Assembly: GCA_021904315.1 (NCBI GenBank)
Contig: CM038922.1
Span: 9,089,347 to 9,153,346 of the forward strand
Origin: Sphagnum magellanicum
Lineage: Eukaryota > Streptophyta > Sphagnopsida > Sphagnales > Sphagnaceae
DNA length: 64,000 bases
Reading direction: 5' to 3'
In this document: positions 12,141 to 54,737 of the stretch, in pieces
How the letters are laid out: every line of letters starts with the position of its first letter
Position numbering within the stretch: the first letter of the stretch is position 1
Notes under the pieces: generated by a model
The model's database searches: none
Told to the model about the DNA's origin: nothing
The model's input: only the letters and a program-made list of their open reading frames with translations
Program-made: the position numbers and the translations under genes

Positions 12141-12454
12141 CACTACTACAATTCATGATTTTTTAAAAGGTTCAAATTGATTAGCTTGTTATTTTGACTA
12201 ATGAACATGTACATTTTACTTAAGGACAAGGGCTTGAATGACACATGTATTTATTGATTAATCAACTTGACTATAGTCATTCATTTGATTAAATACACAT
12301 AGTTAAATTATACAACCTTAGTCAAAACGGCCAATGGTTTTTAGTCAAATTGAACATTTAGTCAAAATGGCTAATCTTTAATAAAAATGACAAATGATTT
12401 TTAGTCAAGTTGAATATTTAATCAAAATGGCCAATGATCTTTAGTTAAATACGA

Positions 12455-12680
12455 CATGGTTTACTACCTTATGAATCTACCTCCTACTTACTCATTCACC
12501 TATTTATTTAGTTACTTACTTACCTATCTATTACCCACCTACCCACCTACCTACTTATACATTCTCACCTACGTACCTACATACATACCTATATTTTGCA
12601 CCTTTTTACAACCTACCTACTTACCTAGCCACTTACCAACATATTATTTACTTCCTTATCCACCCACTTACCTACCTAAT
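12455..12680. repeat. CCTA-rich imperfect tetranucleotide array
   Basis: The array is built of TACC/CTAC units with frequent substitutions. The long open frame across it, with a Tyr/Pro/Thr-rich product, is only a product of the repeat. Related arrays lie at 13905-13980, 17285-17440, 21325-21370, 21620-21990 and 31285-31485. Confidence 0.85.
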
Positions 12681-12689
12681 TTTAATATT

Positions 12690-13650
12690 TAAATAACCAT
12701 TAAATTTAGCCATTAGGTTTACCCAAATTTTAATCAAAATTTAGCCGTTAATTTTACTTTAAATTTAATGATTAAATTTAGCCATTAAATTTGGGACTAG
12801 GTTTAGCTTAAATTGAACCATTAAATTTTACCAATAGGTATAATCTAAATTTAACCACTAAATATAGCCACCTAAGGTTTAACCACTAAAGTTACCCATT
12901 AAGTTTAACTGAGATTTAACCATTATGTTTAACCATCGGTTTAGCCCAAATTTAAACATCATGTTTAACCAAAGTTTAGTAATTATGTTTAACTAGTAGA
13001 TTTTGCTTAGGTTTAGCCATGAAGTATGTTTAACCATTAGGTTTATCAACTAAATTTAACCATTATGTTTATCCATTAAATTTAATCATTAAATTTAATC
13101 AAGGTTTAACCATTATGTTTAGCCATTAGCTTAAGTCGTTGAATTTAGCCATTAGGTTTAACCATTAGTTTAAATCATTGAATTTAGCCATTAGGATTAG
13201 ACATCAGTTTAAGTTGTTAAATTTAACCACTAGGTTTAACCATTAATTTAAGTCTTCAAATTTAGTCACTAAATTTCGCCATTAATTTAATTCGTTGAAT
13301 TCAGCCATTAAATTTAACCATTAGTTTAAGTCGTTAAGTTTAACCACTAGGTTTAACCATTATTTTAAATCATTGAGTTGAGCCACTAAGTTTAACCATT
13401 ATTTTGTATTGTTGAGTTGAACCACTAGGTTTAGCCATTATTTTAAATAATTGAGTTCAGCCACTAAGTTTAACTGTTATTTTAAATCATTGAATTCAAC
13501 CACTAAATTTAGCCATTATTTTAAATCATTGAGTTTAGCCACTAAGTTTAACCATTATTTTAAATCATTGAGTTTAGCCATTAGGTTTAACCATTATTTT
13601 AAATCATTGAATTTAACCACTAGTTGTCACCTAGGTTTAACCATTATGTT
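12690..13650. repeat. 13-bp monomers in a 39-bp higher-order repeat
   Basis: From 13142 to 13622 the sequence divides exactly into 37 monomers of 13 bp with no insertion or deletion. Three monomer types alternate in order: AATTTAGCCATTA, GGTTTAACCATTA and GTTTAAATCATTG (commonest forms). This gives a 39-bp higher-order unit. The flanking 12690-13141 is the same material but out of register and more decayed. Because 39 is a multiple of three, one frame stays open (13451-13666) and codes a 13-residue repeat. I regard this as a by-product. Confidence 0.9.
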
Positions 13651-13705
13651 TAATGATGTGAAATAAACATGTGAAATAAAAACTTGATAAAAGTTAAACA
13701 CCTTT

Positions 13706-13775
13706 GACGGTGCAGTCCATTAGTAAGCACTTGGTTTAACATTGTGAAGGTTTGGGGTTTAATTCCTTATACTTA
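13706..13775 (+). other. tRNA-like segment (SINE-head-like)
   Basis: GGTGCAGTCCATTAGTAAGC resembles a pol III A box. GGTTTAATTCC (13756-13766) resembles the B box GGTTCGANTCC, about 35 nt downstream. It has no acceptor stem good enough for a working tRNA. The sequence after the B box (TATACTTRCAACCTATG) is shared with 31681-31697. Confidence 0.45.
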
Positions 13776-14249
13776 CAACCTATGTGCATGCTTAGAACAT
13801 TAGGGTAGGTAGGTTAGACTAAAGTAGTTCAATGAAGTTAGGTTAGGTTAGGTTAAATAGGCTAGGTGAGGGAAAGTTATGTTAGGCTAGGCTAGCACCT
13901 ACCTACTTAAATGCCTTTTTTCAACCTACCTAAACCTATTTACTACTTACTTACCTATTTACCTACCCATCTATGTATTAATTTTTAAAATAATAATCCA
14001 AAAATTGATTTTAATTTTAGTATTAAATTGACCCTGTCAAATGGTCCACTATCTACTAGTCAAATAGTTAGTCATTTTGTCAGTCGTTTTGCTACTCAAA
14101 ATGACAAGGTCCAATTTGACTGCCTAATCATGCAATACATGGCCAAAACAACTTTTCCAAATTGACAAGGTAGTTTCTTTTACACCTATCACTTTTAGGT
14201 ATTTTTTGACAAGAAAACCCAATTGAAAAAACCATGAATTGTAGTAGCG

Positions 14250-14436
14250 AAAAGATTATATATTTTTCTTCACAAAATTTTGTTTTTTGGAATTATTTTT
14301 TTATTTAAAACTATATAATTAATTTCAAAGATGCCAAGGTACTACAATAGTAAATTTAATGTAAAGATAAAAATGACATCCATGTATAATAAACATTAAA
14401 AGAAATATTGTCCATTCCAACCATATGATTATGATT
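14250..14436. other. AT-rich spacer, nothing seen
   Basis: This short stretch between two mobile elements has no recognisable feature. Confidence 0.4.
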
Positions 14437-14580
14437 TACTAGTAGAAAAAACCCATATTATGACTTGTCCAAGGTGAGTAAAAGTGTTGTTTGCAACTAT
14501 TTTGGTTTACACTACAATAATTGTAAATAACACTTCTACTCAACTTGAACAAGTCACAATGTGGGCTTTTCCTACTAGTG
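14437..14580. mobile_element. 144-bp MITE with long terminal inverted repeats
   Basis: The left arm begins ACTAGTAGAAAAAACCCATA and the right arm, on the other strand, CACTAGTAGGAAAAGCCCAC. They stay alignable for about 55 bp, including the GACTTGT..AAG and GAGTA.AAGTGTT blocks. The loop is about 30 bp. The CACTAGTAG terminus is of CACTA type. I see no clear target duplication. The element could fold into one long hairpin. Confidence 0.75.
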
Positions 14581-16435
14581 ACTATAGATGTAACTAATGT
14601 CCAAATCAACTACTTTTATGACAATAGTTAGGTTAATCCTATGTGTTATTTTAGTCATAAATGTGTGTAGTCATATATGTGACTATTGTAGTCACATATG
14701 CAACTATAATGTTGATATAACCAAATGAAGTCACAAATGTGATATAGTTTGTGACTATTACATGTTTGGAAGGGAAAAAAAAATGAAAGTGCAAATTTTT
14801 CATCCAATCTCAAATGGATCCTTGGATGAATGAAAATTTAGTTATTTTTGCAATTGGTCATATTGTTTTGGCAACTAGGGCCCAATAATTTTTCCATTCA
14901 CCATACCTTGATGATTAAAACATATGTGGTATATTTGAAATTATAATATTTGCTCGATAATCAACTTGTGTTGAATCATTTATTGGTATTTTTATTGTTT
15001 ATTGACATTGGTTCGATACAAATTATTATATTTTTATTAATATATTTGAGTTCTGATATGTTTATAAATGTTGTAGATGATGATTATTTAATTATATTTC
15101 ATACAATTAAATTAAATTTTATTGGTAAAATTACAACATATTATAATCATAATCAAATAAGATGTCTAAGAAATATATCATTTATCTAATCATAAAACTT
15201 TTATCATAATTTTAAATAACATTCGTATATTACATTTGTAAAAATTTAAAATTTAAAATTCCATTAAATTCATTAATTATCTAAAATTATTAAATATATT
15301 TTAAATTAAAATTTAAAATATAAATAATATTATACATCATAAATAGTATAACTGACAAAGGAATTTTATTATATATTTTTGAAATGTGATTGATTTATTA
15401 TCCATTTAAAAATTATATGTGAATTAATTAAAATAAGATATATTATAATCACATTGTATAACATGTTTTCAAATGAAATGAAGGATTGAAATGTGGGAGA
15501 TAAATAAATAAATTATTTTATTTTAATTGAAAAATATTTTCCATTTATAAATCATGTGCTTGAACTTGTTTTCACAATGAATTGTCATCAAAATGTAATT
15601 CAATTTTACAAAATTTGAAAAAACTTATTCAAATTAATGTAACTTTTTGAAAGAAAAATATTTTTAATTGTGTACATCATTGTACTTTAAGAATAAACTT
15701 TTAAATTTTCCATTTGGGTAAATATTAATAAATATGAAATATTGAAATTGATGTGTGTGCAATCTTTAAAACCAAGTATTGGGTAAATAAAATGCATCCT
15801 ATTATGTTTTCACATCAAGTGGGGTGGTTTGATGGCAAAGAAGTTGATATCCATCCTTGGGGTTTAAGGATCAAACTTCATAAGTGACATAGTTATGGTC
15901 AAGATGATATGTTGATTATATATGTCTTATGGAGCTGGGATAACCTAGGTGCTTACTTAGACCTGTTTAGGTGTTTAGATTAAGTGGCTTACCTAGGTAC
16001 TTAGATTAGGTTTTTAACCTAACCTAGGTTGTGATAGATGTCAACAACTCATAGGATGAAAATTTTGAAATTAACAATAACATGAATGATTATATTGCAT
16101 CAATTTTATAAATATAAATAGTTTATTTAATATATATGTGATTTAAAAATTATATTAAATCATTTAAATTTAATTAAAATTTAACATTGCCCAATATTTA
16201 ATGTAGTCATAGATGTAATCACATAGTCCTATGATTAGTTGATGGATGAAATATCCTTTGATTGCAAGTGACTACTAATGTCATACATGCCACATGAAGT
16301 TTTTTACAATTAGTTGTCTTTTGCCACTTGTCCAAGGCAGTCTATAGGGTTTATAGTTGCATGTGTTCATTGCGACTAAAATTTTATCTTTTGCAACTAA
16401 AATTGTAGTCATTTATGTCCAAATTTCTTGTAGTG
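14581..16435. mobile_element. CACTA-like element, right end clear, left end eroded
   Basis: The right terminus reads CACTACAAGAAATTTGG on the minus strand, ending at 16435, which is a textbook CACTA end. Subterminal TTTTAGTTGCAA and TAGTCRCAATG motifs lie at 16320-16420. Similar GTAGTCACATATGCAACTAT motifs at 14660-14710 suggest the other end, but its exact terminus is lost next to the MITE. The interior has a tRNA-like segment and a CCTAGGT-rich block (15940-16035), both of which recur inverted at 53150-53365. No transposase is present. Confidence 0.5.
15821..15885 (+). other. tRNA-like segment
   Basis: GGGGTGGTTTGATGGCAAAG is A-box-like, and GGATCAAACTT lies about 35 nt further on where a B box would be. 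It is clearly homologous to 53290-53357 and, more distantly, to 21440-21512 (both minus strand). It is a decayed pol III-type module, not a tRNA gene. Confidence 0.45.
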
Positions 16436-16606
16436 AAATTAATCAATAAGCAAGACGAATTGTTTCTTTCATTAAGACATATGTGTATAAAGGACAAGGA
16501 TCACCAAATGAATTTAAAAAGACATATGAACCATTTAATTTCATCAAATCGTGTTTGTTTTATAACAACAATTTCATCTTTTATTTTATTATGCAATGTT
16601 AATGAT

Positions 16607-16850
16607 CACTAATGCAAAAATGGGGTGTAGTTCATTAGCCTAAATCACTATGGGACCTCAAAAGAAAACAATAGGTTCACTCCACCTTAATGATTTCACC
16701 CTAATTAAAGCTATTTCATTATAGGCTTATATATAAACATAATGTTTCAATATAAGTTGACATAATTCACTATTATAATTTATTATGGTAAATAGGCTTA
16801 TTTTTATGTTGTTTTAAATACCCTAGGCTATTTTCATTATGAAGAAAAAA
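16607..16850. mobile_element. terminal fragment of a CACTA-like family
   Basis: It begins CACTAATGCAAAAATGGGG. For about 245 bp it matches, inverted, the right end of the element at 52860-54734. Shared blocks include TTCATTAGCCTAAATCA, TATGGGACCT and ATGTTGTTTTAAATA. I cannot find its partner terminus. Confidence 0.6.
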
Positions 16851-17284
16851 GGTGTTTTGCAATTGGCCTTGTAACTCAATTTTTGAATTGCAATGACCAC
16901 TTGCAATTCACCATATTTCTACATTGTGAATGTTATTAGAGAAGTTACATGAGTTGTAGAATTATAACTCATTGTATATACGGTGCAATTCATTGCAACT
17001 CAATTCCAACTCTACCGAACCCACTCATTTTCAACTATTATCCAACTCCACTATAACTATAGCCATAATGTCATGCTGACGTTAATAATTTCATCCATCT
17101 ATTGAAACTTGACATGTGGCATTATGAAGATTTTTGTAATAATTGTTTTTAAAATATTGATTTTCATCATCTATTATGATTATTGATGGTTTGATATTAT
17201 GACACGTGACGTAATAAAAAATTGCCACATGGCATATTAATTAAAATTTGAAAAATAAAATTAAAAAATAATGCATTTTAATAT

Positions 17285-17440
17285 CTAGGTAGGTCGATAC
17301 ATAACCATAGGTAAGTATGTTGGTAGGTCCTAGGACCTACATACCTACATTACATATCTACTTACTTACCTACCTACATAGGTAGGTAGAAAAATAAGAC
17401 CTATTTACTTATGTAGGGAGGCAAGTAAGTAGGAAAGTAT
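17285..17440. repeat. TAGG/CCTA inverted array with 18-bp palindrome
   Basis: A TAGG-type array turns into a CCTA-type array around GTAGGTCCTAGGACCTAC, a perfect 18-bp palindrome at 17323-17340. The wider arms pair imperfectly. It resembles the array cores of the fold-back elements but lacks their ends. Confidence 0.8.
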
Positions 17441-17940
17441 AAAACTAAATGAATTAAAAAATATTCTTGTAAAGTTTTATTTTTTATTTTTTATTTTAGC
17501 TTTAGGGATAAACATTTTTGAAGTCATCCCAAAATGGCATGTGTATTTTAGTGTGAAAACATAAGAGAGGACACCTTTTTTGTATAGTTTGTGACATGGG
17601 ATTCAAAAATAAGGCATATGGGTTGAATCCTCTAGTTGCTTTTTAGTTGCAAATTAAATTGCAACAACATAAATAAATGACTAGACATTTAGACGTTCAA
17701 TGCAAGAAAAATCCAAAGGGAGAGCTTTATTGTTTTTGGTATCCAAATTTTTTTTGAACCCCTCCTATTGGCACATATGGTGCATTAAAAATCATAAAAT
17801 ACAAAATAAGATTAAGAAAGTTACGGCCCCCCAAAGTATAGGGGGTCAAGAACTCAAAAAAACAAACCACCGAATGCTACAAAGGTTGGTTCTTGAACAC
17901 TAAAAAAATTCCTTGTATGTTGTTCTATTACTATTAGAGT
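17441..17940. other. AT-rich intergenic DNA, no gene seen
   Basis: The 67-codon open frame at 17700-17903 has no recognisable domain and no neighbouring exons. I see nothing else. Confidence 0.35.
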
Positions 17941-18385
17941 TCAAAAATGAGTTGTAGAACTTTAGGTGGCACTTTTATAACATTTTAAATCGTTTAAAAT
18001 GAATTAAAAAAAACAATCATGAGGTTAGAAAGTAGGGGTCAAAATGAAGAAAAATGAAAACTTTTGCAAATTGAAAAAATGTATTCTCTTTATATAGCTT
18101 TTTTTGGGTTGGTCCCTTGACTTTGCATTTCCAAGATGATTTGTAGAACTTTAAGTGGCATTCCTATAACACTTTAAATCGTTCAAAATGAATAAGAAAT
18201 AAAAAATTTATGAGGTTTGAAAGTAGGAGGGGTCAAAATGAAAAAAAAACACATTTTGTAATTTGTAAAAATGTATTTTTTTTACAACTTTTTTTTTGGT
18301 TGATCCTTTGGTTTTGCATTTCAAAAATGACTTATAAAGCTCGAAAAGATGTTTTTGTAACATTTGAAATCATTCAAAATGGAGA
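17941..18385. repeat. ~190-bp tandem repeat, about 2.3 copies
   Basis: Units start at about 17941, 18130 and 18321 (spacings 189 and 191). Each contains AATGAnTTGTAGAACTTTA, then AACATTTTAAATCGTT, GGGGTCAAAATGA and TTTGCATTTC blocks. Two further copies lie at about 56253-56510 inside a hAT-like element. The unit length resembles a plant satellite, but two or three copies are too few to call one. Confidence 0.75.
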
Positions 18386-18759
18386 AGATAATTAATTGTA
18401 ACATAGTTGTTGCCTTAATGGCACATTTACGATAGTTTTAAAATAGTTGTCACATGCAACTATTATGCAACTCCTTCAAAAATCAAACATGGTTGACTAC
18501 GGATGTATATATGTTATGTACAAATTATCATATAAAAGACCCATTTTCAACTGACTTACAATTATAATATAACTAACTGATTTTCTGAAGTGACAATCTA
18601 TTTATTAATTCCCTGTATTTCCAAAGGGATAGTTGCATACTAGTTATAATACTTAAGGGGTAGTTGCGTAATAGTTATATATGATTTATTTTTTTAAGGT
18701 TTAGTTGTAGGGTAGTGTGGTTTCAACGAACACAATTTCTCATAGTGTTTAGGCTATAT
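18386..18759. other. intergenic DNA with CACTA-type right termini
   Basis: TTTTCTGAAGTGAC (about 18589) and TTTCTCATAGTG (ending about 18748) look like right-hand CACTA termini. The second matches the ends of the MITE at 44125-44240. I found no matching left ends nearby. Confidence 0.3.
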
Positions 18760-19080
18760 TCCATGTTATTTTAACCTACCTTAATTATTTTAACTTATAC
18801 CTTAAAAATTATTATAGGCTTTTTTTTTAAAGTTATTTAAAGTTAAACTATTTAATTAACCCTAGGTTATATCTTAGGTTATTCAAAGTCATTATACTTT
18901 ATGTTATTATAAATTTTTTAATCCTAAAGTATAACAATAATTTAAAATAATCAATAATAGCCTCTATAAAATAACATAGAATAACCAAAAATGGCATATG
19001 GTAAAACAACCAATAATAACTTAAGGTAAAATAATTTAGAATAGTCAATACCAACTAAGAATAACTATCACAAATACTAA
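18760..19080. repeat. degenerate AATAACC-type repeats
   Basis: It is built from units such as AATAACTTAAGGTAAAATAA, in two orientations that meet near 18850-18900. The same material forms the arrays at 20660-21080, 22272-22496 and, inverted, 53640-54480. Confidence 0.6.
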
Positions 19081-20659
19081 CAACATAGACTTTATTCATA
19101 TGAATGTTCATCCATGACTTATAATTAATTTTTACATAACTTTTACTTTAGTTTCAATTCATTATTAGTTAGCTTTTAATTAATTTTTAGTTCACTTCTA
19201 GTTAACTCTTAATTCATTTGTAATTATCATTTAGTATTTTCAATTAACTCATAATTAAATTTCAATTTATTTTTTAGTTCACTCATAATTAATTCATAGT
19301 TTATTATTGGTTCCCACATGGATGGATATGGGCCACACATGGTGGAAGATGGATCACATGTAGGTTGGAAGTTTCCTAAAGAGCTTCTTTGAGCTAAGTA
19401 TTTAATGAGTATAAATAGAGGTATAATCCCACATTACTTTCATTCTATTCAACATTAGTTTTTTATCTTATTCTCTTCTTGTCATGTTTTTGTAATTATG
19501 TCCTTGTTGGGCAAGGATATTTGGGGGTTATCTTGGAATAGCCAAAGACCTAGACATAATGAATTAGTTGGCGTAATTTTAAGCTAATTAAATATTCTAG
19601 GTAGGACAACCTAGTTTTGGATAAATTCCAATTGAAATGAGTAATCAGTAAAATTCTAAGCTAACTTGACATTTTAGGTAGGAAAAAAAAGAACATAATT
19701 TTGAATAGTCAAAGGATTTGAACCCTGACACTTTGACATTGAAAAGTTATGGGGAGTACATAAAAGACAATTTTGGGGTATAGGTTGGATATACAGAAGC
19801 AAACAATCATTAGGAATTAGGGTAGGGAAAGGGGACTTCACCTCTTTTAGGGTTAATTCAACCTTAAATCATTTTCATCTTGAAGTGGGGTTAATATGCA
19901 AAAAATATGTTAATTCTAGATGTTTATTTGTTGAGTGGAAAATGATAGAAAGGAAGAAGGGTGAGAATCGTGACAAAGTGAAGGGTAAAGCCTTGGGGCA
20001 ACTTCTTGTTGTTAAGGAGAGGAAAGGAAGTGGGATGGTGGCAAGGAGGCAAGGATAACAAAAATAGGCATGAAAGAGGGGGAGGTAGAGAAAAAGGAGG
20101 GGGGAAGGACAAAAGAAATTGGAGGTAGAAAAATAAAAGGATTGTGTTTTTTTATATTCTTTAGCATCTGAACCTTGGTGAACACAAAGAAAAGTAGAGC
20201 ATTGGGGAAGGAGGTTGTGGGAATGTTGTGCACAGTAAGAAGAAAACATTTTGTATTGTTATTGTTGATCATGCTGTATTTTAATTTTAGTTAACCTTAT
20301 TGGGAGCTAAAACAAAGAAGAAAATTTGACATTAGGAACCATAAATAAGAATAAAAAAGGAAGTTTAGGTTGTAGGGAAAACAAGGTGTGTAAATAGTAG
20401 TGACAATTAATTGGTCCAAAATTTGAATTCACAAGTGTTGTTAAAAAATCCATATAATGGACCCACTAGAAATGTAAATAGGTAAATACACATCAGAACT
20501 CAAGGTGTAATATTTTGTTTAACATTCCTTTTACATTCACATCGTGCACACATTGTGTTTTCACTTTTGATTTTTTTATTCCATGACCTAGATTTAAAAC
20601 TAAACCTACCTTTGTTCATATGGTTTGGAAATCTTGTTATTTAGTTCTTTTCATGGCTA
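19081..20659. other. intergenic DNA, no gene seen
   Basis: 19930-20130 is a strongly purine-rich stretch on the plus strand (GGAAGAAGG, GAGGGGGAGG and the like). Its plus-strand reading is Lys/Glu/Arg-rich and soon meets stops. The long minus-strand frames opposite it are Ser/Pro/Phe-rich shadows. The rest is AT-rich without features. Confidence 0.35.
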
Positions 20660-21080
20660 TGTCAATAGCTTAATGTAAAATAATTTAAAATAAACAAATA
20701 TAACTTACAATAAAATAAACAATAATAACTTACAATAAAATAACCAATAATAGTTTATAGTAAATAACTTAAAATAACCAAAAATAGTTTATAATAAATA
20801 ACTTAAAATAACCAAAAATAGTTTACAATATAATAGCCAACAATAACCTATGGTAAAATAATTGAGAATAGCCTACAATAGAATAGTCAATGGTAAAACA
20901 ACTTAAAATAGTCAACAATAGTGTACGATAAAATAACCAACAATAACTTAAGGTAAAATAACCTAAAATAGTCAACAATAGTGTAAAATAAAATAACCAA
21001 CAATAATTTACGATAAAATAACCTAAAATGATTAACAATATCCTACAATATAATAGCCAATAATAGCCTATAATATAATA
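20660..21080. repeat. 60-bp tandem repeat of AATAACC type
   Basis: Between 20821 and about 21060 the period is 60 bp, each unit made of two 30-bp halves. Recurring words are AAAATAACCAACAATAAC and AAAATAACCTAAAATAG. The array is split by the CACTA-like element at 21081-22271 and resumes at 22272. Confidence 0.8.
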
Positions 21081-22271
21081 CACTACAAGAAATCACGATT
21101 TATTTAACTAGAAACTAAATTAAAAACCAATCATTTTGACATTTGGTCAATTTGACCACTTAGTCATATTAGACAAATCAATTTGGATGCATCTAACTTG
21201 ATTGATGGTTTTTTGACTGACTATAAAATGGTCTTTTTGACTAGTCAAATTGAACAAAAATTTGGGTAGCCCAAAAAAAAAAAAAAAAAAAAAATTGTAA
21301 ATATAAAAATGTAAATAATAAGTATCTACCTACCCACCATGGCCTCTTACCTACCTATCCACAACCCACCTATGTATTATACATTTACACACATGTTCAA
21401 AATATATATACAAATATACATATTCCACATAATATATGTTGGTAAAGGGAATTGAACCTTGGTCTACTTGGTTCCACACAATGTTTCGGCCATCAAATCA
21501 CCCCACCACTTTGTAAAATAATATGACACCAAATGAATTTAACATATATTTTTTATCTTCCATGAAATTTTTTGTCAATGTGTATAACAACATTTGAACT
21601 TCAATTTTTTTCATAAGTAGGTTAATAACTACTTAACTAAATAGATAGGTAATAGACATGCCTACCTACTTATGTTTTTAAATGTTCATACCTATTTATA
21701 TAAATTATAAATACATATGTAGGTAGATAAGTAGGTAACTTTGATAAATAGTAGATAAATAGGTAAATAGTACGTAGATAATAGTAGGCAAGTAGGACAT
21801 AGGTAGGTAGATGGTAGGTAAATAGCTAAGTAAGTAGGTAAGTAAGTAGGTAAAACATAGGTAGATAGATGGTAGGTAAGTAAGTAGGTAAATAGGTAGG
21901 TAGGTAGGACGAACATATTTAGGTAAATAGGTAAGTATGTGTTAGGTAAGTAGGTAGGTAGGTAGTTTAATAGGCATAACAAGTAGGCTAGCTAACAAAT
22001 TAATATGGGCAATTTGACTAAGCATGGCCATTTAGTATGGTCGATTTGATTAAGCCATGGGCATCTTGATGGACCATTTTAAAAAATTGTCTTTCTTCAC
22101 TAGATGCATGACCTAACACTTGGTCAAAATGTTCATTTCAGTCAAAAAACCTAACCAAAAAAACCATGTGTTTTTCATGCCCCATGTTTTTAGTCAAAGT
22201 GAATATATTTTTGGTTAATGTGAACATTTGAGTTAAGTTGAACCTTTTGAAAAACCATGATTTCTTTAATG
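21081..22271. mobile_element. CACTA-like fold-back element inserted in a satellite
   Basis: The left end CACTACAAGAAATCACG is a canonical CACTA terminus. The right end, on the other strand, reads CATTAAAGAAATCATGG, a decayed partner. Inside are GTCAATTTGACC-type subterminal motifs (21140-21260 and, inverted, 22010-22150), an A22 run (21273-21294), CCTA units (21325-21370), a tRNA-like segment (21440-21512) and a TAGG array (21620-21990). The same 60-bp repeat flanks both sides. No 3-bp duplication remains. No transposase is encoded. Confidence 0.6.
21440..21512 (-). other. tRNA-like segment
   Basis: On the minus strand GGTGGGGTGATTTGATGGCC lies where an A box would be. GGTTCAATTCC (21448-21458) is a good B box, one base from GGTTCGATTCC. 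It is homologous to the segments at 15821-15885 and 53290-53357. It does not fold as a complete tRNA. Confidence 0.5.
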
Positions 22272-22496
22272 AAAGCCAACAATAACTTAAGGTAAAATAG
22301 TCTAAAGTAACCCACAATAACCTACTATAAAATAACCAATAATAACCTATGGTGAAATAACATAGAATAACCAACAATGGCATATGATAGAATAACCTAT
22401 AATTGCATTTGGTAGAATAACAAAAAATTACCAAGAATTGCTTATGAATAAATAGTGTAAAATACCCAACATTGGCCTATGATAAAATAACACATA
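22272..22496. repeat. continuation of the AATAACC 60-bp repeat
   Basis: Units such as CCAACAATAACTTAAGGT resume right after the inserted element and run on to the MITE at 22497. A short remainder follows at 22651-22720. Confidence 0.7.
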
Positions 22497-22650
22497 CACT
22501 CCTACAAAATGTGGGTGTAATTCATTAGTCCCTATTCACTAGGCTAGTGGATTCACTACTTCCCCACTAGGTCCCATTCACTATGATTGTTGAATTCACT
22601 CGACATTCAATGAAATCATTTAGTGTATAGGGACACATTTTGTTGTAGTG
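22497..22650. mobile_element. 154-bp CACTA-type MITE with ATA target duplication
   Basis: The left end CACTCCTACAAAATGTG and the right end, on the other strand, CACTACAACAAAATGTG match at 15 of 17 positions. Both flanks (22494-22496 and 22651-22653) are ATA, a 3-bp duplication. The sequence inside the left end (GTGTAATTCATTAG) relates it to 16607-16850 and to the right end at 54734. Confidence 0.78.
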
Positions 22651-22744
22651 ATAATAACCTATGATAGAATAACTAAAAATTGTCAAAAATAGCTTAAGGT
22701 AAAAAAAAAAGTGCATAATAATATCTGATAATAAAAAAATATCA

Positions 22745-25700
22745 TTCATTTAAATAATGGTTCAATAATTAAGGACTTGTTTTTTAAACATGGAAGTGAA
22801 AGGAAATAAAAGATTTAAACCTTCGCACTTACACCTTAGGTTGATGAACAAGTTGTTTAAATGGGCTAAATTTTTAATTTAGGTTAGGTAGCCTAGTGAA
22901 GGTTCTTAAATGCTTAACATAAGTTTGTGATTAATTGTTAATGAATTTATTATTGTTGATTTAACTATTAATGAATTTAGGGCATATTCACAATCAAGGT
23001 ACCATTTTTTTTGCCACAAAACTCAAGGACTTTGTTGTTGTTATCTTCCAAATATAAAATTTAAGTGGAATAAATTTAAATGAGATATTGAATAATTCAA
23101 ATTATGATAATTTTCATGGTGGTGGTGGGTTTTCACATGCATATGTAATTATGCATAAATATTTTGTTAAAAAACCAAAAATGCAAAAAATGAATACATA
23201 AGTTTTAATATACAACTTAACATGTTTCTTTGCATGAAAATTTCCTACACATTTTGCTAGCACTTGGGGCCACAAATTTGAACCTAATGAATAGAAAAAA
23301 TCAACCAAACGGGAAAAAAAAAAATCATTTTTCTTGTAGCCTTTTCAAAATGGATTTTGTAGCTTTCAAAATTCTTATATCCTACATTATTTAATCAAAT
23401 GCATTATATACATGAAAATTGCCAAACATAGATGTATACATTACTTATCCATGAAAGAAAATTGAAGTCAATTGCATTGTTTAATACATTCTTTGTAATT
23501 CTTTTAAGATGTAAATTACAATTAAGACAAGGACTTAAATTGTTTAAAAGGGCGCAAAAGGACATCAATATTAAATCCAATCTATTCTTGGATTTTTTAT
23601 TATATTAACATGACATCATTTTAATTATAATCATATACCAATCCACTATAATCATGAAATAGTAAACATAATAAAACTCCAAAATAGTCATTTGTAACTT
23701 TTTTCGTTAGACCATCCTTTTGGGTATGTGATTGTGAATATGCTTTTTATTATTAATTATTTAACTATTAATGAATTTTATTAACTATTGGTGAATTCAA
23801 TTAGTTATCATTGAATTCACTTGTCAAAAGCAATTGGTCCCTGTTTACGAAGGGGTTGCCCACTTTCACCATGGTAAATTTGTCCTCAATTTCACTGAAA
23901 ATTTAATGAAACACAAAGTGAACTTGAACGCATATTAGATATGAACTTGAACATGAATAATGTAAAAATAAATTTCATAAATTGTAAGGATATTTTAAAT
24001 TCATATAATAGAAAGTCATTGATTATTATATTATAAGTCTATTATGATTTATCATCAAGAAATGACATTTTTAATGAGAATTATGTTGGTCATATACCTA
24101 TATAATTAATGTTGTTTGAATCTACAAAGAAACTAATCAAAAGATCACAAATATAATTGACCATGAATACCGAAAAAGATCATTTTTATTCAATAAAACA
24201 TTCATGCAAAGGTCTTTTTACAAATTTATGATAACAAAATTTTGATTATCAAACATGCGATTATCCCAATAAATTGTTGGTAACCATTGATTTTGTTATA
24301 AGATGTGCACAAAGTTATTTCATTGATTTACTCATATTGTGTACACAATCTTGTAACAATGATCAAATGACATTTTGCATGTATAATGTTTTGTAAATAT
24401 TTATGAATCCTTATTCAATTTTGTTGAAGATTAATTTTATGAAACAACAAAATGTTAAATGTGAATTTCAAAGATATATCATTTAAATACACCTCCTCAA
24501 CCATTACTTGGTCAAATTTTTTTGTATTATTACATCTTCAAATTGTTTTTTAAAATTTTCATCTTGTTTAAATAATTTGACAAATAATATGTAGGTTTTA
24601 AATGTTTAAGTTTTTTCCTCTTTTTTAATATCCATGTCATTAAAAACATGTTTGTAAAAGTTTAAATGGGTTGTTATCATATGGCTTGTACTGTATAGTA
24701 ATGATGTGATGCATAAAACTTAATCAAATGATCAGAACACATCAAAGTATTTTTTTAACCAAAATGAAAAAAATACAGAAGAAGAACATTGAAAAGAATA
24801 ATATAATTTTTCATTCTTGGTCCATTAATCCTTTAAAATCATTTCTTTTCACATAATGTACACATAATGAGGTATAATACCTTATGTGAATGTCACAATG
24901 AAAGGGAAAAAAAATGCATGCCCAAACATAGAAAACTCATGATAAAAAATGTTCCATCAAAAATCACAATTTACATGATAAAAACATAATTATCCGTGTA
25001 AATTAGACCAAAAAGTACATCTACTTAAAATCCCTTTTAAAAATGTGACAATTTTCTACAAAAACATAAAAAAATAGATTGGAAATTTTTTATCTTTCAT
25101 TTTGAAAACATCTATGCCTCCATTGAGTTTATGGTAAGTTTAGTATAAAATTTGAAAGATTTAAGAATAATAATAGTAGGTTACAAATAGGTTTGAAATT
25201 GACTGATATATATATTTTTCAAACTGAACTTTTACCCTATAGGCTGGACTTATTTTTATTAGAATGTGAAAAAGATGAAAAAACATAAGTACATTTTAGG
25301 GCCCCATTAATTCAAAAAAAAATTTAATGTAATAGTTCATCTATTTACAACCTACTTAAAATGTATAAAGTAGATTGTGAGCTTGCTTGAATTCCCATGA
25401 ATCTACTTAAACCTACTTTGAACATGTAGTCTTTAGTTAAAGTTTTAACAAAATTGAAGAAAATTTTCATATTAATCCTTGAACTAAAGTTCAATATGTC
25501 AAAGCATACTTGATGGCTACTTTCCATTTATGTTGCAAGGTATGTTTGTAGTTTAATTTACCATAATTCTAATATCTTGCTAAACAAATAATCATTTCTG
25601 AACTGGATGGTGGGAGTGAGCCTTTTTTTCTTGTTTTGACAATTGACAAAATCATGTAGTCTACTTTAGAAAATATTAATAAAACCCTTATTTGAGCCTC

Positions 25701-28600: not shown

Positions 28601-30949
28601 TTCATGTTTTCACCCCATAATAGTTGTGTGTCCCCATGTAAGGGGTACTAATTGCATTTATATGAATTTTTTTTTGCAAAAGCTAAAGAAATTACCATGG
28701 ACAAACTATATGCAAGGAAACTTGCACGTGTGGTTTTGATTAAAGGGGAGGATAAGAACCCTATTGGAATTTTTCAATGTGTAGAACTTTGCATTTAAAA
28801 CCTGATGACGCTTTGCGTCCTACTAGGGTCCTGGGCAATAATTTAACTTTTGCCAACTCCTCAAGGGAAGTAGTGTCACAGAATCAAGAAAGTGGCTTGT
28901 ATAAGTGTAGGTAAACAAATTTCGACAATGGCTCTATGGTCAACTTTCATTCTTGTTTTGTGTTTGAAACACATTTTCATTAATTACCAGACTCATAACA
29001 TTCTTGCACATTATCTCCCTTGTGCATATAATTTTCACGTACTATTTACATAATTGTAAACAATCACAGAAATTTATACAATTTATGCTCTATGAAACAA
29101 AAATAATAATAAATAGGATATTGAGTACCATGCATAGTATTGAAATAACTTGATCATGATTGTTTCCACATGTTAAATGTAAAAGGCATTTTTCCATTCT
29201 CACCATGACATTCATATTTGCTCCTTTTTTAACAATCTTTTGAACAAGCTCAACATGTCCACACGAAGCTTAACTAGATAACAAATGTTCATATGTCAAT
29301 GACATGACATGTTCAAATAACCTAGATATGAATGAATTTCAACCAAAGGGCAATAATGATATGATCACAATGTGTAACATGCAATAAATCTTATTTATTT
29401 ACACCAAAATTAAAACATTGAAAAAATTAAAGAAAAGATAGATATCCTTGTAGGGTAAGAAGTTTTTAAAATGTTTTTAAAATGAAAGACATTACTTCAT
29501 TTATATATGAAATTAAAGTGTAAACAACATTATAATGCATTAAGCTGAATTTGAGTTGAATTGAGATTGAATTCAATTCAATTCAAATTCATTTCAAGAC
29601 AAATGGGATGCAAATTGGTGGAAAAGGTATTCAAAATCTTTTTATGAATGTGGCATTGGCAAAAAAACTTTAAAAAAACAAAAATTTGAAAAAACACCTT
29701 TCCATGCTTCTTCACGTGGGATTGGGTTAAACAAATTTTAGTTTGGAACTATCTAATGATGACTTATGGAACCTAAAGTTGTCATACCTAAACCAATTCT
29801 GATAAATCATTGTCATTAAATTATAGATGACTTGCTTGGCATTATTTTACAAAATCAAGATGAGTCTAAATATTAATTCATTGTTAACATCTTTTTAGGT
29901 TTTCCAACAAACAACACTTGGAAAAAATATAAATTTTTTAATGTTCATTAAATTTGTCCCATAATTTGCACATTGATTTATTGGCTTAATCTTGTACATT
30001 TAATACATTTTGGGATGTAATAGGTGTACTTAATTGTGGAACAATGCTACTAAATGTTGAATGTATTCATTTTCCATTTTCCATTAGAAGAACACATATG
30101 ATTAGGTTTTTACTAAATGGTATGCAATGACACTTATTGTGTTGGAATAAATTGATTTGGATTCAAGTCCTCTTTAATGTATTGGAACTTTAGTTTCATA
30201 TGTGTTGGTGTGTGTGTGGGGGGGGGGGAGGGATCTAGCAAGTAATAAAATTTTAAAATTGGATTTGTTTTATTTTCATGAACTTATACAAGTTTGCATG
30301 GTCTTTAATAACCTACATTAACTAAAGTGCAATATTCAATCTTGAAGTTCATGCATTGCAAATTTTCAAACTCTAGAAGTGAGACTACAAAACACATTTG
30401 ACATTCAAAATTATTGAATTGGATGTTAACCGATACAAATTTCATGTCATTTTGTGGGTTGATTTTATCACCCTAAAATAATTGTTGATGTTAAGTTCTA
30501 GACCATTGGATAGGAAGCAATTCATTTAAAATTACATCTTCTAAGGACATTCAATTTCATGTGAACCGTGAACAACTTTATTTGCTTATCACTTTGAATT
30601 CCCCCTTAAACTTCAATGTTCAATTATTGGATCAGGTTGACCTTTGCACAATATCCTACTAGCTCCCATAATACATATGGTGGAACAACAAAGAATGACA
30701 CCCATTAGGTTTCTTTGTATCTATTATTGAGATGTGAAACTTGTGTTATATTTTACGCTTTTAGGTTTATTACTACCATGTTGTATGTGCATGATGTTCT
30801 AAACAATGCTTCTTATTAAAGGGTGCAAAAACATGAAAACCATAAAAAAAAATTTGGTTTTGAACTATGAAAAAAATGGGATATATGATTAATGAAACAA
30901 CTACATTTGTAATCATTTTGAACACATGTGACTTGAATTCATTCAAATT
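28601..30949. other. AT-rich intergenic DNA, no gene seen
   Basis: There is a second 11-G run at 30218-30228. I recognise nothing else. Confidence 0.4.
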
Positions 30950-31958
30950 CACAATAATAGAAAAACATGGTTTTTCAAGTTGTTCAAGTTGACTAATTGC
31001 TGATTTTTTTATTAATGAAATGTCCATTTTGACTAAAAGTCCATCATATGAATGGACATTGACTGATCAATTTGAATAATGATGACCAGTTTGATTATTC
31101 ATCAAATGGGGCATCTAATCAAGTTGGACAAAAAATGATATTCTTAGTCAAGATCACCAATAGATTTTCCTCAAATGGAACAGTTGGTCAAGTTGAACAA
31201 ATTAAAAAAAAAACATTTCTAGTCATGATGGCTGATGGGTTTATAGTCGAATAAGACATCTCCTCAAGTTGGACAAACAAAAATGACATCCTACCTACCT
31301 ACTTAAAAGTTACCTACCTAAGCTAGTATAGTACCTACCTACCTACCCACCTATCTAATTACCTATTGTTGCACTTAAGTATAATTACTTATAATTAATA
31401 CTTACCTACCTAGGTAGCATACTAAGTACCTAAGTCATTTTAAGTTAACTATATATGAAAGTAGGTAGGTGGGTGGGTAGGTTGATAATAGTTAAGCCAA
31501 TACACCACCTATTTAAGTTGTCTACCCAATTATTTCTTAATTACCATTTTATTTATTTACATAAGTCTACTACATACATTGTCAAATGTCAAATAAAAAA
31601 GTTGACAAAAATTAATATGAATTTCTTTTCCATTAATAAAGATTTTGTTTATCATCATGGAAGTGAGGGGTTCAATTCTTAATACTTGCAACCTATGTTC
31701 ATGTTTAAAGTGTTGGGTTAAGTAGGTTAGGTTGGGTAGTTAGGTTATCACCTAGTTACCTACCACTTTGATTTTTATGAAAATAAATATAAAAATAAAT
31801 AATCTAAATTTGACCATTCAAAATTGACCACCTAGTCACAACAAACATGTTAAAATCGACTTATTCAAAATGATGGGGGTTTTTTTCATGGTTATTAAAA
31901 TGGGGGTTTTTTTTTCATTAAAAGTTTTAATAAAAAAAACCATATTTTCTATTAGTGT
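30950..31958. mobile_element. CACTA-like fold-back element
   Basis: The left end CACAATAATAGAAAAACATGG pairs with a right end reading CACTAATAGAAAATATGG on the other strand. The order inside matches the 12141 and 21081 elements: GTCAAGTTGGAC-type motifs (30980-31270), a CCTA array then TAGG (31285-31485), a tRNA-like segment (about 31640-31700), GTTAGG units (31710-31760), inverted motifs and a T-rich end. No target duplication can be seen. No coding capacity. Confidence 0.55.
31640..31700 (+). other. tRNA-like segment, B box only
   Basis: GGTTCAATTCT (31669-31679) is a good B box. The following TAATACTTGCAACCTATG matches the segment after the B box at 13756. The A-box part is not convincing. 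Confidence 0.35.
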
Positions 31959-46599: not shown

Positions 46600-47898
46600 A
46601 TGGCTCATCAAACCATGATTTCTGATATGTTCCAACAGATTGGAAAAATAGAGCATGAAGAGGCATTGTAGCATGAAGCAAAGCAATTAGCTATGAAAAA
46701 TCAAAAAGCTTCTTTGTAAACAATAGTGGAAAGAAGCAAGCGTCGAGTTGGACGACCAAAGTTACAACCTCACATGACATTGCAATCACTTGGCAAATGC
46801 ATCAAGCATGAGAATGAAGAAGGGACAAGCAACCAAGAATCCAAGAAGCATCAAAAAGGTATTTACACTCAATGGTTTACACCACACCTTTGGCCTCACA
46901 TTCAGATTACAATGGAAAGGCATAAGAGTTTGACGACTATTTTACATTATTTCCGTGCATTCCATAAAAAGCCAAAGGAACATTCAAACCCATTTGATAA
47001 GCTTTCTAGATCCTCTTTAGGAGAGTGGTTTACCTTAGATGGAAATATCAAACTAGGGGTTAAAAAGTCAATAGAGAGGGGGAGAGATTTTACAATCACA
47101 AAACAACACATTCCAATACTAGATTGTAGGCTAGAAGTGAAAAATGAGTTCATGTATTTGTTACAAAAGATTAGAGCTTTTGGATAAGCCCTTTTTGGAC
47201 CCATAGTCCAACCCATTATCCAAAGCTTTCTTGAATTCAAAGCTCCTAAACTCCTAAGTGGTTCATTCAAAGTTTCATTGGAGTGGTCTAGAAAGTTCAT
47301 GAAAGCCAAGTTGGGTTGGTCCTTTAAAGCAACTACTTTAACTGTAATAAAACTACCAGCAAATTGGGAAGATCAAGGAACATAGATGGTGCATAGGGTG
47401 GCATACCTTGTAAAAGCATACAATGTCCCTACATCACTTGTCATAATTAAACACGGATCAAACAGGGATTCACCTTGTACCTACAGGTGGGGAAAGAACA
47501 TGGAAAAGAAGGGATCAAAAGACATACATGTTCTTGGGGTTGAAAATAAAAGGCAAATTATTGTTGTAGTATCCTCTACAACTAATGGAAGTTCTTTGCC
47601 TCTACAAGTGATTTTTACACGATCAATAACAAGATGTCTTCTTTAAAATGGTCTAGGGAAGGCATCTTGTTTGGGAGTAAGGTTTCATTTGACATAGTCT
47701 GGTACTCATTGGTCTATTTTAAAGACCTGCCAACAATTTGTGGAAAAGATTTTAATTCCTTATCACAAAAACGAGGGATAGGAATTGAACTTGCCGCAAA
47801 ACCAAAAGATGGTATGGCTAATAGACTATTGGTCAGTCCATAAGAACGTGGAGTTCATACAATGGATCAAGTCACAACATCCATATGTATGTTTGTGA
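46600..47898 (+). pseudogene. pogo/jerky-type DDE transposase pseudogene
   Basis: One frame can be followed from an ATG at 46600 to 47898. It meets in-frame stops at 47185, 47383, 47644, 47695, 47779 and 47896, besides two in the N-terminal part (46672 and 46717). It shows a basic RRVGRPK motif, then a helix-turn-helix-like region. RKFMKAKLGWSFKATT at about 47290 is typical just before the catalytic core of DDE-1 family (Tc1/mariner-Pogo) transposases. KNMEKKGSKDIHVLG, ENKRQIIVVVSSTTNGSSLP and the second catalytic block VWLIDYWSVHK (about 47812-47844) follow. The first catalytic Asp appears lost (KHGSN where NxDQT is usual), and the third lies beyond the point where homology stops. Confidence 0.8.
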
Positions 47899-50069: not shown

Positions 50070-50400
50070 TTACAACCTCAACCATTGCAATTCTCTTGGA
50101 AAACATATTAGTATCTTTTTCTTTGTTGACCTATTCACACTTTCATCGTACAACCAGTACCTCTTTCTCGAGTTGCCTTGTTTCACCCACCTAAATTTTG
50201 ATCCACAACATATCCATGTTATTGTTTTCAAATCCATGTGTGGAGGTCTTGCTACCATAACTAATGTATGACAAGCCAAAAAATTAAGAACCCAATTAAG
50301 TCTCCCTACTTCCTTGGTGTACAGTTCAATGTAATGAACAACAAACATGAGATTTCAGAACCATATGAATGACTATCTGCTATTGCACAATAGATGGTGT
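50070..50400 (-). pseudogene. unassigned coding-like relic
   Basis: A 92-codon minus-strand frame (50348-50070) has coding-like composition, with Trp, Cys and Met well represented, and continues on both sides through stops and shifts. It lies downstream of the gag-protease relic on the same strand and may belong to the same retroelement. I cannot name a domain. Confidence 0.3.
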
Positions 50401-50866
50401 TGTATACACCTACTATAGATATTTTTTATTCAATAGTCGTAGTTTATCATTAGCACTTCGGTTAGGTCGATCCAACATTATCTTCACTTGCTTTACTTGG
50501 CATTTCTTTGCCTTAGTTCCTCTCCCCATTCAATCCACACAATAATGTCAATATAAACTCACATCAACCATAATTCCTATCATAACTTTGTGCTATCAAG
50601 ACAACCCAACCTTCATATCCAAAGTTTTTTTGTCTTCTAAAACCTTTTTCTTTCTTCATACCATCACAGACTCATCTTGGTTTCCCAAAACTTTAGTGTT
50701 TTGAGTCATCATAATTGGAACTTGTGGAGAATTGGACAACCAAACACAAAATGTAGTAAAAGTGGATTGGGCTTCTAAAATGATGATACTTCCACCTATT
50801 GCAAACATCTGCATCCTACCATCAAACAAACAATGTAATAATTATTGGCTTTGTAACAAAAAAAAA

Positions 50867-52760
50867 TTATTTTTCTTCATATGTGATGCCATTTTGATAA
50901 TCATAGCATAATAACATTTCTAGTATTCTAACTTCACCTCCCAAATGTTTAGTAGCTGTAATTATTCTGACTGTCCCATTCCCTTGTATGGTAAAAATGT
51001 TACTTCCCCAATCATGTGCCACTTTAACATCCCTTAACCATGGTCTCCCCAACAACATGGAATAGGTAAAATCTACCACACTATTATGAAGTACAATAAA
51101 TGTAACTATGTAAGGAATGCCACGAACATATATCTTCAGATCTCTTATCAACCCCACTAGTTTTGTGGGTGTTTGATCTACCATCTTTATATTATATGGT
51201 GCAAGTTTAGACTTTGGAGGCCCTAATCTCAATCTCAACTATTTTGTGATAATATTTGCTCAAGAACCTCCATCCAACAACACATCTTCTATTGTATTCT
51301 TCTCAATTTGTACTTGGATAATTACCATATGATTATTTATTGCTATAGTAGTTTTCCCTACTTCTGATACTAAAAAACCAACTTCTTTTTTTGTGGTTGC
51401 TTTACTTACATTTTGAATTTCGTTTAGTTTTAATTTCTATCAAATATATCTTTTTAGCTCAAGAGCTATTTTAAGTAATTGTCATAAGTTCAAAGTATAA
51501 CTCGTTTCTAACATCTGCTTACCAATGTTTAGAAAAATATCTTCTATTGTGATCAATTTCCCTTGTGAATTCACTACTTCTATTACGTCCATAGGAGTAA
51601 TATTTAACATACTTGGCTAGGTTGTGTTCCATCCTTCCATAGATGTGGATGGCCCTTCTGTCTAGGTTTTTGTTTTATGAATTTGTTGAATTGTCTCCAC
51701 CATTGAATGCTTCAATCTCTTTTCTTTCTCTTAGTCAACAACACTCTTTGTTTTTCTTGGCTCTTTATCCTTGAACACTTGTTCTTTAGTTATTTTGCTT
51801 CTTGTGGTAACATTAACATCCACCGGATCACATCTTCAATGATTGTTTGTGTTTTAGCAACAAGTTGAAATTCTGTTATTATCACATATTTCCCATGAAA
51901 CATTTTTTGCATTTTAACAAACTTTGGACAATCTGTCATTTTATGTCCATTCAAACCACAAATGTGACATGCATATAAAGATGTCTTCTATGTTTTTTGA
52001 CTTGGTTATGCTACCTTTGTGGTTGCCATCGTGGTCAACTTTTTCTTATTTCTGCATGTCTCCACATTGTGATTTGACATCCCACAATTTGTGTAATGTT
52101 TGTTAGTCTTCCCTATATTACTTTGTGTTTTTGTTGGTGCTACCTGTTTGGTACTCTATGGTATTAACAATGCATTCCTTGCTTTTGAAGTAGTCATACA
52201 TTCTTCACACAACATTGTTGCCTCCTTATGTTGTAATGTTGACTGCTTCATTTCTGAAGTCGCAATTTGAGGTATGATTGCAAACCCACTCTAAACACAA
52301 TAGTTAGAAAACTATCTATGGTTGGTACTTATAAACCATGAGCCAACTTCTGAATCCATTCATAGTAAACCTCCACCCTCTTAATCTCCTCCTGCTTCAT
52401 GTTTTTTAGCTCCATATATATTTGCTTATCATTCTAAATCTTTTGATGACCTTTGCAAAATGCTTGTGTAAGCTCCGAAAAAATACACTTAGAAAATTTT
52501 GACATGTAATTATGGCTTTAATTCAATGTCGTATCTCTTAATGTATAGCTAAATGCATTGATGATATACTTTTCAAAAGATTTTGCATTTGCTTTTATTA
52601 TAGAATTGAACACTTTGACGTGAGCATCTGGATTCACATCTTTTTTGAATTAGGATAATTAAGAGCTACCCTATTTGGCCTAACATAATGGCCATCTCTA
52701 TTATCAAGAATTAGTCTAATTACAACAAATGGTTTTCAATATCTTCCTCTTGGATTTGTG
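50867..52760 (-). pseudogene. Ty3/Gypsy-like gag-protease relic
   Basis: High to low: a decayed capsid-like region (52760-52150), then a degenerate zinc knuckle whose first Cys is His, then an intact CCHC knuckle at 51969-51928 (CHICGLNGHKMTDC). About 600 bp further is a retropepsin. Its active-site LLDGGS lies just before a TGA at 51260-51262 and a TAG at 51239-51241. After these the frame runs open to 50867 with YSMLLGRPWL, the usual C-terminal retropepsin block. Knuckle and protease are in different frames. No reverse transcriptase follows, so the element is truncated as well as mutated. Confidence 0.8.
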
Positions 52761-53289
52761 ACATCTACATTTCTGTATCTTCCAGCAACCATTGACCTCA
52801 TTAATGGTCGATCTACAATCCTATTCACATGAATAGTTGTTATCGAATTAATAAACACCCACTACACCAAAATGCATCTTAATTCACTCTGGGTTTCACT
52901 ATATTTTGAGTGATTTTGGACATTTTTACCATGGTGACATTGGTTAACCTTGTAGTGAACGAGGACTAATTGTTATAAATAGTGAATTGGTTCATTAGTA
53001 CCTAGTGAAACAAAGTTATTTTCAAATGAAATACAAATTTACCAAGCCATTCATTTGTTAGTCAATTAACTAGACAACATGGAAATTAATTAAATTTAAA
53101 TTATTTAATATATAATATTATTGATAATTTCATGATTTTTAGCCTACAAGTTATTGACACGTGTCAACTTAGGTTAGGTTAAAAACCCAACCTAGGTACG
53201 TAAACCACATAATCAACCTAAGCACCTATTTTAAGAAACTAGATAAGAGAATATTCGGTCAACTTATTATTGTTGACTACACATAAACC

Positions 53290-53357
53290 ACTTGTGAGGT
53301 TTGACCCCTTGACCTTTAAAATGGAAACAAACACCTTTACCATCAAACCACCCCGCT
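53290..53357 (-). other. tRNA-like segment
   Basis: On the minus strand GGGGTGGTTTGATGGTAAAG is A-box-like, and GGGGTCAAACCTC lies about 35 nt on as a T-arm/B-box-like block. It is homologous to 15821-15885. Confidence 0.45.
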
Positions 53358-53929
53358 TGTTGTGATAATATGTTACATTGCATTCTATTTATCAACTACT
53401 TCATTTTAAACATTACAAAAACATAAAATTTGAAAATTCATATCTTATTAAAATTTTGTCCAAATGAAATGATTTGAATTTTTTTTTAAAAAATTCAATA
53501 CTGTACTTAATTACATTTATTTCTTTTTGAAAGTGTAAAATAATTTGAACAATTTGTTTTTTGAATATCACTATTTAATAACATTTCAATGACCATTCTT
53601 TTGAAAAAAAAAAATTTAATAAATGAATAATTTTTTTGTTAATATAATAATACTACCTATGCTAGGCTACTTTCAATTATTATAAGGTTACTTTTCATTA
53701 ATCTAAATTATTTCAACCAACATTATTTACAATTATTTATGGTTATTCTTAAATACTTTTGGCTATTTTTGGCCATTTCACCTTAAGTTACTTTTAGTTA
53801 TTCTAAGTTACTTTTGGTTATTTTATGTTACTTTTGGTTATTTTAACCTATTTCACCTTAAATTACTTTTGTCTATTGTAAATTATTTCACCCTAGATTA
53901 TTTTTGGCAATTCTAAACAATTCTAATAT

Positions 53930-54240
53930 ATGGCTATTGGTGGCTATTAATGGTTATTCTATTAATGACTCTTGGTAGCTATTCTACTGGGGCTATTACT
54001 AGATATTTTATTAATGGCTATTAGTGGCTATTTTATTAATGGCTATTAGTGGTTATTCTATTAATGACTATTAGTGGCTATTCTATTAATGGCTATTAGT
54101 AGTTATTCTTTTGGTGGCTATTTTATTAATGACTATTTGTGTCTATTAGTGGTTATTAATGGTTATTACATTAATGGCTATTGTGAATATTTTATTAATG
54201 GCTATTGGTGGTTATTCTATGTTATATTACGACTATTGGT
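53930..54240. repeat. 25-bp tandem repeat
   Basis: Units are TATTAATGGC followed by TATTAGTGGTTATTC or close variants. The period is 25 bp around 54005-54110 and loosens outward. Its reverse complement carries the AATAACC words of the arrays near 20.7 kb. Confidence 0.75.
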
Positions 54241-54737
54241 GGTGATTCTCTTATAAGTTATTGTTGGATATTCTAAGCTATATTATTGTAGGCTATTGGT
54301 AGTTACTCTACTGTAGGTTATTTTAAATTATTTGTCATAGGCTATTATTGGTTATTATAGGCTATTTTATTTTAGGTCATTATATTTTATTTAAAATTAT
54401 TTAAAATTATTATACTTAGGATAAAATAATTTATAATAACTTATAATAATGTAGGGTATAAGTTATAATAACTAAAGTAGCCTAAAATAATATAGGGTAT
54501 ATCATAAAGTAACATATATAAAATATTTAAAACAACATAGAAATAAACCTATTTATTACAGTAAATTATAATAATGAATTATGTTAACTAAATAAAACAC
54601 GATGTTTACATAGTGATATTATAATGAAATAACTTTAACTAGGGTGAAATCACTAAAATGCAATGAATTTATTTCATTTTTAAGGTCCCATAATGATTTA
54701 GGCTAATGAAGTGCACCCCACTTTTGTAGTAATGACC

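Follow-up and report, generated by a model that had tools for sequence, protein, structure and literature searches.

Several non-autonomous CACTA families of Sphagnum magellanicum share a tRNA-like internal module

Five CACTA-type elements in a 64,000-nt stretch of Sphagnum magellanicum DNA (the window; positions 9089347-9153346 of contig 16 in a 439-Mb, 31-contig genome) each contain one tRNA-like segment, which raises the question whether this module is a regular part of such elements, where it came from and whether it serves a purpose there. Our preferred reading, to which we assign a probability of about one half, is that several non-autonomous CACTA families carry a tRNA-derived, SINE-head-like segment as a fixed internal part, captured once or a few times.

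Table 1. Elements and modules in the window; TSD, 3-bp target site duplication.
Feature	Position	Strand	Details
e1, CACTA element	12141..14249	+	ends CACTACTACAATTCATG / CGCTACTACAATTCATG; TSD AAA/AAA exact
e1, internal diverged tandem array	12656..13658 (approximate limits)	+	units ~39 bp by eye
e1, tRNA-like module	13699..13788	+	A box-like 13713-13723 (5/7), B box-like 13756-13766 (9/10), gap 32
e2, CACTA element	14394..16435	+	ends CATTAAAAGAAATATTGTCC / CACTACAAGAAATTTGGACA; TSD AAA/AAA exact
144-bp CACTA MITE inside e2	14437..14580	.	no module; flanks ATT/ACT
e2, tRNA-like module	15811..15897	+	A box-like TGGTTTGATGG (6/7), B box-like GGATCAAACTT (6/10), gap 32
e6, older e5-like element	~16607..23943 (approximate)	-	ends decayed, no TSD
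e7, CACTA-like element	16835..18747	.	TSD TTT/TTT; CCTA/TAGG block; no module
e3, CACTA fold-back element, nested in e6	21081..22271	-	flanks ATA/AAA (2/3 bases)
e3, tRNA-like module	21429..21508	-	B box 10/10 informative positions
154-bp CACTA MITE	22497..22650	.	TSD ATA; no module
e6, tRNA-like module (sixth)	22757..22841	+	not in training set, E 2.5e-7; boxes decayed
e4, CACTA fold-back element	30950..31957	+	ends CACAATAATAG / CACTAATAG; no TSD seen
e4, tRNA-like module	31630..31699	+	B box 9/10, A box poor; e1 lineage
e5, CACTA element	52860..54734	-	TSD ACC/ACC exact; internal diverged tandem array
e5, tRNA-like module	53283..53363	-	e2 lineage

All five segments lie in elements of CACTA type, as an earlier note on this DNA had claimed (Table 1). 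Inverted CACTA-type ends are present throughout, decayed at the left end of e4 and the right end of e6; 3-bp duplications are exact in e1, e2 and e5, agree at two of three bases in e3 and are missing in e4 and e6. No transposase was seen in the window elements. The extents proposed earlier hold for e1, e3 and e5, whereas e4 ends at 31957 and e2 starts at 14394 rather than near 14581, a nested MITE having split its left end from the rest. The 1.9-kb e7, e3 and the 154-bp MITE are all nested in e6. Rfam models MIR8742 (both strands, best 51.1 bits against a cut-off of 130) and mir-5014 (one strand) match the MITE within e2 at 14446-14572, probably reflecting the hairpin likeness of a MITE and not a miRNA gene. 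Elsewhere in the window, a Group II intron model reaches 39.5 against a gathering score of 40 at 28701-28770, possibly a nuclear copy of organelle DNA, and open frames on the minus strand at 2413-4543 resemble what we take to be a ClpB/Hsp100 AAA+ chaperone gene in pieces.

A profile built from nine module heads finds one segment in each of the five elements at E values from 1.7e-14 to 3.2e-11, all five modules or their family consensus being part of the training set. The same head-only profile also finds three modules on which it was not trained, in the fetched loci L004 (2.3e-10) and L075 (3.9e-8) and in e6, adding a sixth module to the window. Among controls, the lowest E was 0.0047 for 20 shuffled versions of the window, 0.19 when the window was reversed and 0.0036 over 60 kb of random genome. 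The modular layout of the fold-back elements recurs as well, and by eye it can be read in L004, L006 and L080. Across 14 elements, CCTA and TAGG together amount to 0 to 87.5 per kb upstream of the module and 10 to 55 per kb downstream, against a background of 6.2 per kb at random loci; the upstream value is under this background in e2 (0), e5 (5.0) and L080 (5.0).

Modules of different families are homologous. The five named elements represent two module lineages, e1/e4 and e2/e5, with e3 as the odd one out: the e1-family module profile finds e4 (E 3.6e-24), the e2-family profile finds e5 (E 2e-53), and about 620 bp around the e5 module align to e2. The ends of e3 are e1-like, yet a low-stringency alignment of 150 bp (E 2.4e-6) ties its module to e2. 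Leave-one-out profiles, which were built from the other families and cover flanking parts as well as the boxes, detected 8 of 11 targets at 1.1e-8 to 6.5e-22 (e1 at 1.1e-8, e4 at 3.1e-10, e6 at 1e-11, and L001, L004, L005, L006 and L050). Detection was weaker for e2 (6.4e-4) and e5 (2.6e-4), and the e3 module was missed (E 5.3). Among the 91 pairs that the 14 elements form, 62 align somewhere at E<=1e-3, 38 of them at the module and 24 outside it only. The sole alignment includes the module in 19 pairs and spans at most about 210 bp in 14 of these, for example in L080, L006, L005, L004 and L050, each compared with L001. What aligns at the module consists of three pieces: an upstream block ahead of the A box (around TTATTACAATATGATGACAAAA), then the tRNA-like segment, and finally a short tail close to CACACTTACAAC. 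The ATGATGA of the upstream block, presumably reminiscent of a C/D snoRNA box, was considered as a sign of such an RNA and rejected: snoRNA models score 12.6 to 19.7 bits on L006, all under their cut-offs, and no D box was seen.

In the 439-Mb genome a first look yielded 742 candidates for the e1 module and 581 for the e2 module, 40 of each being scored. Thirty e1-type and thirty e2-type loci were fetched, window copies included. They align past the module, and, picked by module similarity, they cannot reveal module-less elements. Where both ends follow the strict form CANTA...TANTG, an exact 3-bp duplication flanks 9 of 10 e2-type loci (8 of 9 insertions, window copy L039 included) and 4 of 5 e1-type loci. 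The flanks common to L047 and L051, and those common to L029 and L032, suggest that each pair arose by segmental duplication and not by two insertions. On contig 4, seven of the L080-type module places listed lie within 125 kb (about 16.55-16.67 Mb), namely the L080 query and six copies with 87-97% identity to it (>=95% in three), possibly a recent local amplification.

Other loci were chosen by their ends and not by the module. Thirteen were fetched by the end word CACTACAAGAAAA alone, L006 and L007 being one element, which leaves 12 distinct loci; L001-L008 head the list of places, L081-L084 are the top four from contig 2, and L080 was picked for two facing ends 1.4 kb apart, a bias towards a real element. 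Seven of the 12 contain the module (L001, L004, L005, L006, L080, L081 and L084), or 6 of 11 when L080 is set aside. It is missing from L002, L003, L008, L082 and L083. No element is recognisable in L003 and L083, and L082 is a CACTA element of about 145 bp. The end-like words of L002 and L008 were discarded as real ends: the former is 1.2 kb ahead of a frame that matches DUF4218, in a frame that itself has no Pfam match and that we read as transposase coding sequence, and the latter lies, by eye, within gene-like sequence. Both words are probably due to chance. The end pattern has 198 places against 83 for the reversed pattern, so that about 42% chance places are to be expected.

Co-location points in the same direction. 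For each of three module types, the 40 best-scoring places were set against the 100 listed end places, which span contigs 1-8; the three types are end-chosen families, with query modules from loci picked by the same end. Among the best places listed, 22 of 72 have an inward-facing end within 2 kb (13/25, 7/23 and 2/24 by type), or 19 of 69 with the query loci left out, whereas outward-facing ends number 1, 1 and 0 and random placement predicts 0.0006 per site. It is hardly conceivable that AT-rich elements merely contain random tRNA-like words and that the recurrence is illusory. The top A+B box score of a whole element is indeed reached in at least 9 of 40 shuffles for 5 of the 14 elements (L080, e2, e4, e5 and e6), as such chance resemblance would predict, but this reading is contradicted by the leave-one-out homology, by the shuffled and reversed controls, by the co-location of modules with CACTA ends and by pattern counts of 170 (up to three mismatches) and 138 (up to one) against 0 in reversed controls.

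The module is not universal in the CACTA elements of this genome, as e7, the two window MITEs and L082 are without it. In randomly chosen sequence, the e1 and e2 profiles had no match at E<0.1 in six random 10-kb loci, and the general profile and model R1 gave a single weak one, at L073 9440-9493 (E 0.0036 and 3.8e-4, respectively). An end-like word lies nearby, with no convincing left end and no clear CACTA element around it, and the match could be either decayed or free-standing. The earlier note had regarded module-less ends or stray modules as signs of a chance association; both are seen here to some extent, in e7 and the three short elements, which have no module, and in the weak L073 match. 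Its proposal of a defined family stands insofar as the association is recurrent, being borne out by the end-chosen loci, the co-location and the cross-family homology, and has to be amended in that several CACTA families are concerned, not one.

How the module reached several families is a separate matter. A tRNA-derived SINE family, past or present, could have been captured independently by several CACTA families, and box conservation would then reflect selection on the SINE and not on the CACTA elements. This would fit the groups that have the module in common while their other sequence fails to align, and the occasional disagreement of module and ends as in e3. Nevertheless, we regard such recurrent capture as unlikely. 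At E<0.01, 363,430 fetched bases gave 78 profile rows (overlaps included), all within CACTA elements or their copies, and none is a free SINE copy, in a small sample picked mostly by family or end (60 rows belong to copies of the e1 and e2 families, and the ends guided the retrieval of most others). No poly-A tail or target duplication of the module's own was noticed. Moreover, the shared block reaches upstream of the A box, and place and orientation are near-constant within families, the module being oppositely oriented in only one of the 22 places with an inward end (C2:26177139). The single SINE capture considered in the earlier note may be what happened, although the sampled sequence yielded no free SINE copy to prove it.

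The likeness to tRNA rests mainly on the paired boxes. The best A+B pair of an element falls within the module in 10 of 14 elements (in e4 it ties with the reverse strand), and a gap of 32 nt separates the boxes of the e1-family consensus and of 7 of the 14 best pairs taken within modules. Scores of 16 or 17 out of 17 are reached by L005, L001, L084 and the e1-family consensus, in which the A and B boxes are ordered and spaced as in a pol III promoter; most window copies are degenerate. Among 6,000 simulated sequences with gaps of 30-36 nt, 16 was reached once and 17 never; the best scores of L001 and L084 use gaps of 42 and 46, outside this range, and within it they amount to 16 and 14. The Rfam tRNA model matches L010 over positions 1-71 of 71 at 23.6 bits, under the gathering score of 29. 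Up to E 10 it had no match in the other nine e1-type loci, 10 e2-type loci, window positions 12000-55000, six other loci or three single-module searches. ARAGORN reported no tRNA gene in the window or the e1 consensus, and no cloverleaf is conserved in 10 aligned modules, which rules out an intact tRNA gene. Elsewhere in the genome, 62 matches to tRNA genes were located. The suggestion of tRNA ancestry keeps the paired boxes in its favour and gains little from the Rfam model; judged by its sequence, the module is likely, though not proven, to descend from a tRNA.

The same data have to be weighed against an old conserved internal core of CACTA elements with another role, e.g. a protein-binding or replication site, whose likeness to tRNA would be coincidental. 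The lone sub-threshold Rfam match among many negatives and the missing cloverleaf would agree with such a core, as would the non-tRNA upstream part of the conserved block, which, unlike a plain SINE, reaches upstream of the A box. We consider it quite improbable all the same, given A and B boxes in tRNA order, their 32-nt spacing in half of the 14 elements and best box scores that at most one in 6,000 simulated sequences attained.

Conservation between families peaks at or near the boxes. In an alignment of 11 rows from which near relatives had been dropped, the top two of 132 windows of 11 columns are AATGGTAAGGA, which takes in part of the A box, and GGTTCAAATCT, which is the B box. The strict A-box window is outranked by 15 of 132 windows in this alignment and by 19 of 132 in all 15 rows, where seven windows rank above the B box; a subset of six rows yields a consensus that has lost the B box. 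Within families the boxes have no special conservation: 88 and 48 of 202 windows rank above the A and B boxes in the e1 family, and 7 and 194 of 368 in the e2 family. Inspection by eye shows that five of the 15 aligned copies (L050, L084, e4, e5 and e6) have runs of at least four T between their boxes, where they would stop pol III.

Since the box-like blocks are among the best-conserved parts between families, we consider it slightly more probable than not that selection for a time kept them competent to bind pol III machinery. The conservation between families would argue for working boxes; the T runs and the lack of special conservation within families would argue against them in present copies. 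The other proposal of the earlier note, an internal promoter belonging to the element, may hold. A stronger version, in which a putative pol III type-2 promoter or TFIIIC site is a working cis part and selection keeps the A and B boxes across families while other sequence is turned over, seems to us doubtful. If true, such a cis part might keep the element in open chromatin or make small RNA.

No autonomous, transposase-bearing partner was identified among the loci examined. The Transposase_21 domain (PF02992) has 152 matches in the genome; 1 of 104 listed module places (103 of them on contigs 1-8) lies within 15 kb of one of the 77 listed transposase places, with 1.1 expected, and elements longer than 15 kb would escape this comparison. 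The module profile had no match at E<1 in three transposase loci examined. On contig 7, a transposase-domain match lies 3.4 kb from the e1-type module copy L010 (3276477, 3279849), at about the chance rate. As listed modules and transposases co-locate no more often than by chance, the module seems to be characteristic of non-autonomous derivatives.

Under our preferred reading of a fixed internal part captured once or a few times, the module would be a unit of about 130 bp. A conserved block would stand upstream in it, followed by the tRNA-derived, SINE-head-like segment that holds the A and B boxes and by a short conserved tail; CCTA/TAGG-rich stretches usually border the unit on both sides. 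The tRNA-derived sequence, probably a SINE head, may have been taken up by an ancestral CACTA derivative in one event or a few, after which each family would have passed it on in a constant orientation and place as the remaining interior diverged. To judge from the ends and 3-bp duplications, these elements presumably move in the usual CACTA manner, with a transposase supplied in trans that acts on ends and subterminal repeats.

The window elements resemble CACTA (En/Spm) transposons and their small non-autonomous forms (SNACs) in their CACTA ends, 3-bp duplications, repeats near the ends and lack of a transposase. They differ from SNACs in a tRNA-like module that is common to several Sphagnum families here and absent from the available text of PMC8978399 and PMC9033089. 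Captured gene fragments and satellite arrays are described for angiosperm CACTA elements in the available parts of PMC8978399, whose main text does not contain the words SINE and tRNA. In Sphagnum divinum, CACTA is reported as the most abundant classified repeat type (6.8%), and the accessible portion of that account mentions no such module (PMC9946827). Among the titles and abstract openings that searches of open-licence PubMed Central listed, we found no description of a CACTA layout with a tRNA module, which is weak evidence for its novelty. Plant tRNA-derived SINEs have A and B boxes like the module, according to the available text of PMC9033089; unlike them, the module is embedded in CACTA elements, and neither free copies nor a poly-A tail or a duplication of its own were noticed. 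A parallel in the accessible text of PMC6887750 is the mammalian MITE MER6/MER6A, a DNA transposon derivative with a SINE-derived part. MER6 belongs to Tc1/Mariner, not CACTA, and its SINE part excludes the tRNA-related head, whereas in Sphagnum the tRNA-like head is the part that was kept. With a recurring module whose box-like blocks are among its best-conserved stretches, the Sphagnum families would represent unusual class II elements that keep a pol III-type signal, and would allow a test of whether non-autonomous DNA transposons gain from binding pol III or TFIIIC.
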